From positions 1-21,700 of IMG/VR virus record IMGVR_UViG_3300008416_000028: a stretch of 21,700 nt of DNA; one strand, given 5' to 3'. Positions 1,592 through 6,999 of this stretch are shown here, piece by piece; within the stretch, counting starts at the first letter, position 1, and every line of letters starts with the position of its first letter. This DNA is from a virus. The translations under genes were made by a program, and so were the position numbers. The notes under the pieces are model-generated. The model was not told where the DNA came from, searched no databases, and saw only the letters and a list, made by a program, of their open reading frames with translations.

Positions 1592-1734
1592 CAAACCAAG
1601 ACAAGATAATATCGTACCCTCAGTATTGCTTCGACTGTTATTTCTCGTTCGTTTCGGCGGATCGGCACGCAAAATGCCCCCGATGCGGCGGCACGAACAC
1701 CAAAAACTGTTTCGGGGAGCCCTATGAGAAATAG
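1588..1734 (+). CDS. 48-aa zinc-ribbon protein
   Basis: MTNQDKIISYPQYCFDCYFSF... then AKCPRCGGTNTKNCFGEPYEK: two CxxC knuckles (CFDC and CPRC) about 16 residues apart, the pattern of a small rubredoxin/zinc-ribbon fold. The ATG overlaps the stop of the radical SAM gene (ATGA) and its own end overlaps the start of the methyltransferase by 11 bases, so translation is probably coupled. Such ribbons often bind DNA, RNA or a partner protein; here it may be an adaptor for the neighbouring enzymes (inference). The upstream in-frame extension to 1534 lies inside the radical SAM gene and is not needed. Confidence 0.7.
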   Translation: MTNQDKIISYPQYCFDCYFSFVSADRHAKCPRCGGTNTKNCFGEPYEK

Positions 1735-3106
1735 CTGGCAGAATTGCTACGATGACGGCTGGAAGGGCCGGATAGTCGATGAAGCGTTTGCGCACCCGGC
1801 CAAAATGGCCTACGGTCTACTCAAGCGTATATTGGCCCACGCGGCCGCGGAGGGCTGGTTAAAACCGGGGCACATAATAGTCGACCCCTTCGGCGGTATC
1901 GGCTCCACGGGGATTCTGGGTGCTTATGAGGGCTATCAGGTGGTGTGCTGCGAGTTGGAGCAGCGGTTCGTGGACCTTGCCCGGCAGAATTTTGAGCTTC
2001 ACGCCAAGGCGTTAGAGGCCCTGGGCTGCCCGCAGCCTCAGATTATCCAGGGGGATTCGAGGAGGTTGTGCGGGGTAGTGGCCGACTGTATTGTGTCGAG
2101 CCCGCCGTTTCAGAAGGCGCAAACGGGCGGCGGCATTGCCAAGAAGGGATATCATAACGAAGCGATGCGTAGGGGTGTGTTTGACCTGGTCGGCAAGAGG
2201 GCGTATATGCCGGAGAATCAGGGCACAGCAGACGGCAACTTGGCGGCGATGCCGCCGGGGGAGGTTGATGCGGTGATCGGCTCACCGCCTTACGCCGAGA
2301 CTCTCAAGGGGGATGGCACACAGAGCGAGACGGCGGCCGAATCAAGAGACAAAAGAAGGACCGAGGGCGGCTCGCTCGGCCAGAGCCAGCGGACGCAGGG
2401 CTACGGCTCTGACGGCAACTTGGGGAACCTGAAGGCGGGGAGCGTGGACGCGGTTGTGTCGAGCCCGCCATTTTCGAGCCCAGGCTCACAGCCAGCGGGA
2501 AATATGCCCTCGACTCCAATCCGTAGCAAAATACGGAAAATGGGATTGGAGAAGAAAGCCGGTGAGGAATACGGCCGGACCCCCGGCAATCTCGGCAATC
2601 TCAAGCCCGGCGACGTCGATATGATATGCTCAAGCCCACCGTGGGAGAACCAAGAACCGTGCCAAGATGACAATTTCAGGCTATCTGATGGGCGCAAAGC
2701 TCCACCGCAGGGCCAAGGCGGCTATGGGCAAACAGAGGGAAACATCGGTAACGACAAGGGCGAGACCTTCTGGCAGGCCGCTCGGCAGATAGTCCAGCAG
2801 TGCCGTGAAATACTCAAGCCCGGCGGCGTAGCGATTTGGGTAGTCAAGAATTTCGTCCGAAACAAGAAAATAGTGGATTTCACCGGCGACTGGCGGCGGC
2901 TGTGCGAGTCGTGTGGCTTCGAGGCGCTGCACGAACATCACGCAATGCTGGTCAAGGAGACGAAAGAGGCGGGGCTGTTCGGGGAGATTGTCGAGAAGAA
3001 GGAACGCAAGAGCTTCTTCCGCAGGCTGGCCGAGTCCAAGGGCTCGCCGCCGATAGACTACGAAACTGTACTGTGCATGAGGACAGCGGCCCCGCCGATC
3101 ACTTAA
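1724..3106 (+). CDS. DNA methyltransferase with four SPP[FYW] motifs
   Basis: A 460-aa SAM-dependent DNA amino-methyltransferase. DPFGGIGSTG (residues 54-63) is the SAM-binding motif I and CCELEQRFVDLA (75-86) the following acidic motif. The catalytic (S/T)PP(Y/F/W) motif appears four times: SSPPF 125-129, GSPPY 186-190, SSPPF 246-250 and SSPPW 303-307. The last three sit in near-identical repeats (GNL..[LM]..G.VD....SPP) starting at 170, 230 and 287, and a fifth partial copy (EGNIGN) is at 339-344. The fold resumes with REILKPGGVAIWVVKNF (361-377). The SPP form is typical of N4-cytosine or N6-adenine enzymes of the beta/N4C type. Long Gly/Gln-rich linkers separate the copies. It is the last gene of the radical SAM cassette and its end overlaps a small minus-strand gene. 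Confidence 0.85.
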   Translation: MRNSWQNCYDDGWKGRIVDEAFAHPAKMAYGLLKRILAHAAAEGWLKPGHIIVDPFGGIGSTGILGAYEGYQVVCCELEQRFVDLARQNFELHAKALEALGCPQPQIIQGDSRRLCGVVADCIVSSPPFQKAQTGGGIAKKGYHNEAMRRGVFDLVGKRAYMPENQGTADGNLAAMPPGEVDAVIGSPPYAETLKGDGTQSETAAESRDKRRTEGGSLGQSQRTQGYGSDGNLGNLKAGSVDAVVSSPPFSSPGSQPAGNMPSTPIRSKIRKMGLEKKAGEEYGRTPGNLGNLKPGDVDMICSSPPWENQEPCQDDNFRLSDGRKAPPQGQGGYGQTEGNIGNDKGETFWQAARQIVQQCREILKPGGVAIWVVKNFVRNKKIVDFTGDWRRLCESCGFEALHEHHAMLVKETKEAGLFGEIVEKKERKSFFRRLAESKGSPPIDYETVLCMRTAAPPIT

Positions 3107-3606: not shown

Positions 3607-3639
3607 TTTCAAACCCTTTCTAATGGCACTATTGCCAAG

Positions 3640-3680
3640 GCCCCGCCTTGCCTTGAAGCCACGGCCATGCCGGGCGGGGC
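3640..3680. repeat. GC-rich inverted repeat between minus-strand genes
   Basis: GCCCCGCC near 3640-3647 pairs with GGCGGGGC at 3673-3680 across a 25-base loop. It lies between two genes of the minus-strand operon. There is no T-run, so it is more likely an RNA processing or stability hairpin than a terminator. Confidence 0.35.
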
Positions 3681-3700
3681 TTGCAGGCTGTTGATAATGG

Positions 3701-4309: not shown

Positions 4310-4338
4310 ATATTACCAGACGGCGGGCGGCTTGTCAA
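4310..4338 (-). promoter_or_regulatory. Sigma70-type promoter of the minus-strand operon
   Basis: Reading the minus strand, TTGACA (4338-4333) is followed by exactly 17 bases and TAATAT (4315-4310). This is a perfect -35 and a 4-of-6 -10 at the ideal spacing. Transcription would begin near 4303 and run through the five small minus-strand genes. It is divergent from the plus promoter at 4464-4491. Confidence 0.8.
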
Positions 4339-4463: not shown

Positions 4464-4491
4464 TTGACATACTTGAGCGGGTCGGTATAAT
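4464..4491 (+). promoter_or_regulatory. Consensus sigma70 promoter driving the ncRNA/tRNA region
   Basis: TTGACA at 4464-4469, a 16-base spacer and TATAAT at 4486-4491: both hexamers are perfect. The expected start is about 4498. The first protein start codon downstream that looks real is over 600 bases away (5133), so the first product is RNA: the structured region and the tRNA, possibly continuing into the terminase genes. Confidence 0.88.
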
Positions 4492-4497
4492 TCAAGG

Positions 4498-5024
4498 TTG
4501 CTAATTGGAAACCGCTAACTGAAAGGGTAGTCCGATGTCATAGTCAAGGTGTTTGGCGTACAATTCTGCACGGACAACACAGTATGCAGAATCAAACCGG
4601 CTCTTTGTAATCAGTGAATATGTGCAGTGTGCGGCGGTAAGACACACGGCGGTGCGGTCAAGGTGTTGTAAAGCATTAAGGAAAGACTCCGCATGGAAGT
4701 GCAGAACCTCGATAGGACTGAACACCTATCCTGCCCACTGCATTAGCTCTTTGATAAGCGGGTATATCAGTGGTGATACGAAGCTACTAAGTAGAAGAAA
4801 GGCACTCCGGTAAGGGAGGGCCTCAAACATAGGTGGTAGCGGCCAGACGTTGATAACTTACTTACTAGGGTTACGCAACAATTGGTTGACCGATTCCGAC
4901 CACTGATACCAAATACCGGGGGCCAAACGGCTACGGCGGCGACACAATGTGGCTCCAATTGCGGAGTCGGATGGAAACGCAAGAAACGCCCTGCTGCCTC
5001 TCTCGCAAGAGCCCCTGATTTTAT
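4498..5024 (+). ncRNA. Candidate large structured non-coding RNA (class not identified)
   Basis: About 530 bases with no credible protein in any frame, behind a perfect promoter and directly before a tRNA. Many local and long pairings are visible: ATTCTGCA 4563-4570 with TGCAGAAT 4585-4592, extended by GTTTG 4551-4555 with CAAAC 4593-4597; GTGTG 4627-4631 with CACAC 4643-4647; GTGCGG 4652-4657 with CCGCAT 4689-4694; GATAGG 4711-4716 with CCTATC 4725-4730 inside GTGCAG 4699-4704/CTGCAT 4738-4743; GGC-A-CTCC 4801-4808 with GGAG-G-GCC 4815-4822; GTAGC 4836-4840 with GCTAC 4930-4934 around CAAC/GTTG 4876-4888; GGCTCC 4951-4956 with GGAGTC 4963-4968; CTCT/AGAG 5000-5011. An 11-base motif GTCAAGGTGTT occurs twice (4543, 4657). 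Known large phage RNAs next to tRNAs are GOLLD and ROOL; membership is an inference needing covariance-model search. The 3' end is unknown and may include the tRNA. Confidence 0.7.
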
Positions 5025-5095
5025 CGCCGCGTAGAGTAGAGGCCACTCGCCAGGCTCATATCCTGGAAACGTCGGTTCGATTCCGGCCGCTGCAA
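5025..5095 (+). tRNA. tRNA-Met (anticodon CAT), initiator-like
   Basis: Cloverleaf by eye: acceptor 5025-5031/5088-5094, D stem GAGT/ACTC (5034-5037/5045-5048) with a 7-base loop, anticodon stem CCAGG/CCTGG (5050-5054/5062-5066) with loop CTCATAT (anticodon CAT 5057-5059), 4-base variable loop, T stem GTCGG/CCGGC (5071-5075/5083-5087) with loop TTCGATT. Position 1 is C opposite A72, and the D stem has A11-U24: both are hallmarks of bacterial initiator tRNA. The third hallmark, three G-C pairs at 29-31/39-41, is only partly met (A29-U41). The acceptor stem has one further mismatch (C4/U69), and CCA is not encoded. It may be a working tRNA or a tRNA-like domain of the upstream RNA. Confidence 0.8.
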
Positions 5096-5132
5096 ATAAC
5101 TAAACTCACGGCACATTTTGGAACAAGAATAA

Positions 5133-5651
5133 ATGGCTAACACCCCCACCAAGACACGCTTTTGGGACAGGCAGGAGAGATTCCTTGACGAACATATCGC
5201 TACCGGCCTCAAAGACCCTGTTACGGCGGCTATAGTGGCGGGGTACAGTAAAAAGACAGCCCGTGTCCAAGCGTTCCAGCTCTTAGCACGTCTTAGCATA
5301 CAGGAGAGACTGGCCGTCAAGCTCGAACCGTTACTCACCAAGTACAGCGTAGATCAAGACAGGGTGATGCAGGAGCTTGTTGCTTTGGGCTTCGGCCGCA
5401 TTACAGATGTCTGCGAAATCGGCCCGGCCGGCGTCAAGATTAAAGAGGGCAGCGAGTTGAGCGATGAGGCTATTGCCACAATATCAGAGGCAAGCGATCA
5501 CTTCGGCTCGGACGGCCGTCGAGGCGTCAAGGTGAAACTCCACGACAAGATCAAGGCGCTGACTCTACTAACACAGATATTACAGATGGTTCAAGACAAG
5601 GGGCAGGGTGACGTAAACTTGACTTTCAACATTGTCAATTACGCAGGATAA
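5133..5651 (+). CDS. terS: Terminase small subunit
   Basis: A 172-aa protein matching the XtmA-type small terminase. The N-terminal helix-turn-helix part reads FLDEHIATGLKDPVTAAIVAGYSKKTARVQAFQLL (about residues 17-51), the family's 'ATxAAIxAGYSxKTA' signature that recognises phage DNA. The C-terminal KVKLHDKIKALTLLTQILQM (about 132-151) is the usual oligomerisation/large-subunit end. It recruits phage DNA to the packaging motor. The start is the ATG at 5133, with a weak GGAAC upstream, 37 bases after the tRNA. The large subunit begins one base past its stop. Confidence 0.92.
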   Translation: MANTPTKTRFWDRQERFLDEHIATGLKDPVTAAIVAGYSKKTARVQAFQLLARLSIQERLAVKLEPLLTKYSVDQDRVMQELVALGFGRITDVCEIGPAGVKIKEGSELSDEAIATISEASDHFGSDGRRGVKVKLHDKIKALTLLTQILQMVQDKGQGDVNLTFNIVNYAG

Positions 5652-5652
5652 T

Positions 5653-6999
5653 ATGGTCGCCCCCACAATACCGTATCACTTCACGCCGCGCGATTATCAA
5701 GTGCCTATTCTTCGCGCCATGGACAAAGGCTGTAAACGTGCCGTTGGGGTTTGGCATCGGCGGGCGGGCAAAGACAAGACATTTCTCAACTACATGATTA
5801 AGCGGATGGTGGAGCGTGTCGGCCAGTATTACTACTGGTTCCCGTTCGCACAGCAGGGCCGCAAAGCACTGTGGGAAGGTATCGACCGCGACGGCTTCAG
5901 ATACATCAATCATTTCCCCAAAGAGTTGATCGCCAACCTGAACAATCAGGATATGTCTTTGCGGTTCAAGAACGGCTCGATATTCAGGGTATTGGGCACA
6001 GACCGCCTCGAAGTGGTCGGCCCTAATCCTGTCGGCTGTGTGTTCAGCGAGTACAGCTTGCAGCACCCGAAGGGCTGGACCTACGTCCGGCCGATTCTTG
6101 CGGAAAATGAAGGTTGGGCAATGTTCAACTTCACGCCCCGCGGCCACAACCACGGATTCAAGCTCTACAAAATGGCTAAGACAAACCCCGACTGGTTCTG
6201 TGAGAAATTGACGGTTGACGATACCCGTGCAATAACACAAGAGGCAATCGACGCCGAGCGCCGCGCCGGTATGTCTGAGGAAATGATACAGCAGGAATTC
6301 TACTGTTCGTTCGAGCGCGGCATGGAAGGGTCGTATTACGGCAAGTGTCTCGCCAAGCTCTACGATCAGGGCCGCATCAGGCCCGACGTTCTATTCAACG
6401 CCAGCTTGCCGGTCTATACTGTCTGCGATCCCGGCTTCCATTGGGCCGTATGGTTCTTTCAGCGGATCATTACAGACGTTGTATTCTTGCGGTGCTATGA
6501 AGATATAGGATTAGGGGTAGAGGAGCACGCTCAGAAGCTCAAGGACATTGCAAAGGAACACGGCTATCGATACGGCGCTCATTTCGCCCCGATGGACACT
6601 GAGAGCAACAACGCATACAGGGCCGTCGCCGGTAAGAGCTTGTTTGAACACGCCGCCGAGAACGGCCTAGACTTCACCATCTTAAAGCCCGAACTCAGGG
6701 TAAAGGACGGCATCGAGCGCACCCGACATTTTCTCTACCGCTGCCTGTTCAACGAGACTGACTGTGAGTTGGGCATCAACGCCCTTGAGGACTATCAGGC
6801 CCGACGCATCGAGCGGATAAGCACTGAGGACCGCGGCTTCTACGTTGACGAACCGGCCGATAATTGGGCTATTCACTTGGCAGACGGCATGCGATACGCT
6901 TCAAAGGCAATAGATCAACTGCCGAGCGGCGACACAATAGCCCGACAACAGGCCCACAAAGAACTACAGGAACTCTACCGCTCACCCTTCAATATGTAG
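5653..6999 (+). CDS. terL: Terminase large subunit (packaging ATPase/nuclease)
   Basis: A 448-aa motor protein from the ATG at 5653, which has AGGA just upstream; a TTG at 5632 would overlap terS. ATPase: the deviant Walker A WHRRAGKDKT (residues 34-43), Walker B GCVFSEYSLQHP (128-139) with its catalytic Glu, and the coupling motif FNFTPRG (158-164). Nuclease: RNase H-like acidic residues in VCDPGFH (D259), APMDTES (D315) and NWAIHLADGMRY (D411). It pumps DNA into the prohead through the portal and cuts the concatemer. Arrangement and motif forms match the podovirus-type TerL seen beside P22-like portals. Length is normal for the family and the reading frame is intact. Confidence 0.95.
   Translation: MVAPTIPYHFTPRDYQVPILRAMDKGCKRAVGVWHRRAGKDKTFLNYMIKRMVERVGQYYYWFPFAQQGRKALWEGIDRDGFRYINHFPKELIANLNNQDMSLRFKNGSIFRVLGTDRLEVVGPNPVGCVFSEYSLQHPKGWTYVRPILAENEGWAMFNFTPRGHNHGFKLYKMAKTNPDWFCEKLTVDDTRAITQEAIDAERRAGMSEEMIQQEFYCSFERGMEGSYYGKCLAKLYDQGRIRPDVLFNASLPVYTVCDPGFHWAVWFFQRIITDVVFLRCYEDIGLGVEEHAQKLKDIAKEHGYRYGAHFAPMDTESNNAYRAVAGKSLFEHAAENGLDFTILKPELRVKDGIERTRHFLYRCLFNETDCELGINALEDYQARRIERISTEDRGFYVDEPADNWAIHLADGMRYASKAIDQLPSGDTIARQQAHKELQELYRSPFNM

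Follow-up and report, generated by a model that had tools for sequence, protein, structure and literature searches.

A candidate structured leader RNA and an initiator-like tRNA between the head-gene promoter and terS of a phage fragment

Organization of the locus

The window, that is, the whole stretch of DNA analysed here, is a phage fragment of 21.7 kb (IMG/VR virus record IMGVR_UViG_3300008416_000028). Along the window, a group of small minus-strand genes is followed by a leftward promoter, a rightward promoter, about 530 nt between the promoter and a tRNA, the tRNA itself, and the genes terS and terL, downstream of which lie the portal and head genes. The main features of the junction are:

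4310-4338, minus strand: divergent promoter, directed leftward, for the small minus-strand genes, TTGACA-17-TAATAT
4464-4491, plus strand: promoter of the terS/head-gene operon, TTGACA-16-TATAAT
4498-5023, plus strand: candidate leader RNA, non-coding, about 526 nt
5024-5096, plus strand: tRNA-Met (CAU) with initiator-type signatures
5133-5651, plus strand: terS, terminase small subunit (PF03592)
5632-6999, plus strand: terL, terminase large subunit (phrog_2)

An earlier, sequence-only reading of this DNA had described a perfect promoter and a non-coding stretch ending at a tRNA beside the terminase genes. Both descriptions hold: the hexamers at 4464-4491 match at 12 of 12 positions, at a place that is conserved in relatives, and the tRNA ends shortly before terS. 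The 5' end of the candidate RNA (4498) was placed from the promoter and its 3' end from tRNA processing. A promoter similar to the leftward one is present in the related phage L091 at 3911-3883. Further to the left, a DNA methyltransferase (PF01555) is encoded at 1724-3106; the related phage L094 carries a relative of it (47%), equally placed upstream of small minus-strand genes. GC-rich inverted repeats starting AAGGCCCCG are located between the minus-strand small genes of the window (3637-3690) and recur in the related phages (L091 at about 3781, L094 at 7949, L096 at about 220 and 538); perhaps they are terminators or processing hairpins.

The tRNA was identified by a tRNA search and by alignment to the Rfam model. 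It shows a C1-A72 mismatch, A11-U24 and the pairs G30-C40/G31-C39, which we take to be initiator-type marks. Its departures are an A rather than a G at position 29 and a second acceptor mismatch, C4-U69; a CCA end is not encoded. The best phage matches are annotated as tRNA-Met. Such initiator-type marks are unusual for a lone phage tRNA ahead of head genes.

The junction in related phages

A single-sequence search with TerL yielded relatives that are 40-48% identical, and the corresponding search of GTDB genomes returned one weak partial relative and no host. Closer phages (L091 to L096) were found via portal alignment: L091 (portal 57%, head protein 64% identical), L092 (TerL 75%, portal 54%) and L093 to L096 (portal 54-55%). 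We note that the terminase genes differ widely among phages whose portal or head proteins are 54-64% identical. TerL is 75% identical in L092, while L091 and L094 have another TerL type; the terminase module has therefore been swapped within the group.

Five of these phages (portal 54-57% identical) share the gene junction of the window, with a TTGACA-16-TATAAC or TATATC promoter. The short promoter/terS-position junctions are:

L091, 3947-3984
L093, 2831-2868
L094, 8117-8154
L095, 4164-4201
L096, 706-743

The mRNA of the terS-position gene should be nearly leaderless in these five phages, because the gene starts 9 nt past the -10 hexamer; the corresponding distance in the window is 641 nt. 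The approximately 530 nt together with the tRNA are thus a cassette that is extra relative to the near relatives and lies within the leader of the operon carrying the head genes. Since a similar promoter drives terS directly in the relatives, the promoter at 4464-4491 is not a dedicated RNA promoter, and the RNA would form the leader of this operon. In L092 a reading frame rather than a non-coding stretch precedes terS, and L088, which has a related head module, harbors neither a tRNA nor a similar stretch.

More distant TerL relatives also have long ORF-poor stretches ahead of terS. Eight of them (L053, L056, L057, L062, L065, L071, L023 and L030) share a sequence-conserved non-coding block that occupies about the last 300 nt before terS and contains the motifs GGGGCCC..., AGT-G-TCTGCGGGG and CCAAT-AATA-AATATGC-AATAA. 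The block folds without covariation support and looks like a candidate packaging site. It occupies the same genomic slot as the stretch in the window and both are non-coding; however, the block is conserved as plain sequence, and its motifs are missing in the window. Because the conserved blocks are absent from the window, the stretches of the distant relatives lend no support to a shared RNA, and homology of 4498-5023 to their long gaps was rejected on sequence comparison.

The block nevertheless bears on a different explanation, namely that 4498-5023 is itself a site for DNA packaging, of the cos or pac type with TerS-binding repeats, and that its inverted and direct repeats act as DNA and not as RNA. 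Packaging sites often adjoin terS, and the conserved, non-covarying block of the distant relatives resembles such a site in the very same slot. The window stretch also contains direct repeats, GTCAAGGTGTT at 4543 and 4657 and GCTCTTTG at 4600 and 4746. We consider a packaging site improbable, as the conserved blocks are missing here, the phage with the closest TerL (L092) has the reading frame noted above before terS, and 530 nt would be long for such a site.

Coding potential and homologues of the stretch

The statement that about 530 bases downstream of the promoter hold no credible protein is borne out. Six stop-masked frames of 4498-5024 gave no significant match in PHROGs or Pfam, and residual similarity to a decayed protein was likewise not detected in these two collections. 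A scan with all 4227 Rfam families, at the gathering threshold and then at a permissive setting (E up to 5), returned the tRNA as its sole match. The models of GOLLD, HEARO, OLE and the group I and group II introns are thus unmatched, as is that of ROOL (RF03087), whereas the same ROOL model recovers the known ROOL of pMP1046A as a positive control. Membership in ROOL or GOLLD, which had been put forward as one option, is therefore not borne out by the covariance models, nor is membership in HEARO, OLE or any other Rfam family. The loci of the relatives gave nothing in the Rfam scan.

Searches by DNA similarity in phages and plasmids yielded no relative of the stretch, with only short chance matches at E 10. 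Back-translated peptide patterns, drawn from 12 sites along the stretch for IMG/VR and from 6 for GTDB genomes, gave no relative either; such scans detect close relatives only. No homologue of 4498-5023 was found in the 166 loci compared, and a single-sequence covariance model of 4765-4908 matched only itself over 87 sources. By these comparisons the 530-nt stretch appears to be an orphan, encountered in no other record among IMG/VR, GTDB genomes, phages and plasmids.

Such a distribution is what one would see if the stretch were passenger or decaying DNA, a recent insert beside the tRNA whose 530 nt are functionless as RNA or DNA. The relatives manage without the cassette, and its folding energy is ordinary (see below). 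We regard this explanation as unlikely: no protein similarity remains, complementary arms are in excess, and phage genomes rarely let half a kilobase without function stand between terS and a promoter.

Predicted structure

Folding of the stretch suggests three consecutive domains and one competing helix (all on the plus strand):

4501-4543: 5' hairpin domain (prediction only)
4548-4917: central multi-branched domain with closing helix GGTGTTTGG/CCAAATACC (4548-4556/4909-4917; prediction only, pair probabilities 0.97-0.98)
4563-4592: hairpin ATTCTGCA/TGCAGAAT (inverted-repeat listing and fold prediction)
4765-4774/4899-4908: inner helix TATCAGTGGT/ACCACTGATA (predicted)
4918-5016: 3' domain (prediction only)
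4931-5034: alternative helix between CTACGGCGGCGA (4931-4942) and positions 5024-5034 on the 5' side of the tRNA, seen as an inverted repeat and in the minimum free energy (MFE) folds of 4498-5096 and 4918-5096

In the predicted fold, the 3' strand of TATCAGTGGT/ACCACTGATA directly abuts that of GGTGTTTGG/CCAAATACC, and several arms branch within the central domain. A long-range closing stem had earlier been proposed around 4836-4934; in the prediction, the central domain is closed instead by the helix at 4548-4556/4909-4917. Arms of up to 13 paired bases do not hold up either. The longest perfect arms comprise 10 nt (4765-4774/4899-4908) and 9 nt (4685-4693/4960-4968), and the sole 13-nt arm, which extends into the tRNA, has a complementarity of 85%.

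The alternative helix would mask the tRNA, and the MFE fold prefers it over the 3' domain when the tRNA is included. The stretch could accordingly be read as a cis-acting leader, in which the 3' domain and the tRNA-masking helix form a switch controlling either the maturation of the tRNA or read-through into terS. We consider such a switch improbable: the two folds are close in energy and come from a single sequence, the 430 nt upstream would be unneeded, and a terminator was looked for in the leader and none was found.

The description of the stretch as dense with complementary arms stands when arms must be strictly Watson-Crick and 7 nt or longer; there are 15 such arms versus 5.4 expected (reached by a fraction of 0.0005 of 2000 shuffles). 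The z value for these arms is the highest among 78 windows of the record. The excess is clear at one of the three lengths tested, the shuffle fraction being 0.045 at 8 nt and 0.085 at 6 nt. The description does not extend to arms counted with G-U pairs (9 versus 10.0, no excess over shuffles) or to folding energy, which is ordinary for 4498-5024 (z -0.78) and likewise unremarkable in local windows. GNRA-capped hairpins on the plus strand number 3 versus 0.5 expected (0.02 of shuffles), and the definition of the fold is weakly better than that of shuffles (p 0.09-0.15). Better statistics for the central domain were discounted, because this domain was chosen from the fold.

As a control, the genuine ROOL on a Ligilactobacillus salivarius plasmid has an energy z of -1.46, no excess of Watson-Crick arms and a fold that is less defined than that of the candidate RNA; the candidate equals or beats a genuine ROOL on the same single-sequence measures. 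Since a genuine ornate RNA is equally unremarkable, single-sequence statistics cannot decide for or against such an RNA.

A model of the cassette

In our preferred explanation, 4498-5023 is a transcribed, structured, non-coding leader RNA, a reading for which we see the case as evenly balanced. It is favored by a perfect promoter at a conserved junction, the lack of a protein, the excess of arms and of GNRA hairpins, and the tRNA at the 3' end; against it count the lack of a homologue in the collections searched, the ordinary energy, the weak fold definition and an arm excess that is clear at one length and absent with G-U pairs. The stretch then belongs, with the tRNA, to a cassette that separates terS from the promoter of the head-gene operon. 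The operon promoter would give rise to a single long transcript from about 4498. The 5' end of a tRNA is a ready RNase P site, and host RNase P would cut there (at about 5024), so that the leader RNA, about 526 nt long, is probably released as the 5' product of tRNA maturation. Once freed, it would adopt a multi-branched fold. The remainder of the transcript would yield the mature tRNA and serve for translation of terS-terL. The freed RNA would then work in trans in the late phase of infection, comparable to the tRNA-linked phage RNAs ROOL and GOLLD and yet outside those families.

ROOL and GOLLD RNAs are carried by phages and linked to tRNAs, and they form ordered multi-copy cages of unknown function; GOLLD is expressed during lysis, and many GOLLD RNAs exceed 800 nt (PMC12286853). 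Like ROOL, the stretch described here is phage-borne, holds no protein, adjoins a tRNA (5024-5096) beside head and packaging genes, and is of similar length (about 526 nt versus 574 positions of the RF03087 model). It differs in that it sits in the leader of a head-gene operon and its structure is predicted only. We do not file it as ROOL, because the covariance model finds no match despite the similar location and size. With GOLLD it shares the phage location and the link to a tRNA, but it is shorter and again has no match in Rfam. By analogy, the candidate RNA may work like ROOL and GOLLD without belonging to either.

More tentatively, and with the chances against it, the stretch might represent a large, ornate phage RNA of a new, tRNA-punctuated class, which the head-gene promoter would produce in bulk late in infection and tRNA processing would set free. 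The initiator tRNA before the head genes is of interest by itself, and related phages with and without the cassette provide a natural comparison. If the reading as a new class is true, the cassette would be a further, unrelated case of such RNAs, tied to a head-gene operon and an initiator-like tRNA, which would argue for a role in the late stages of infection.
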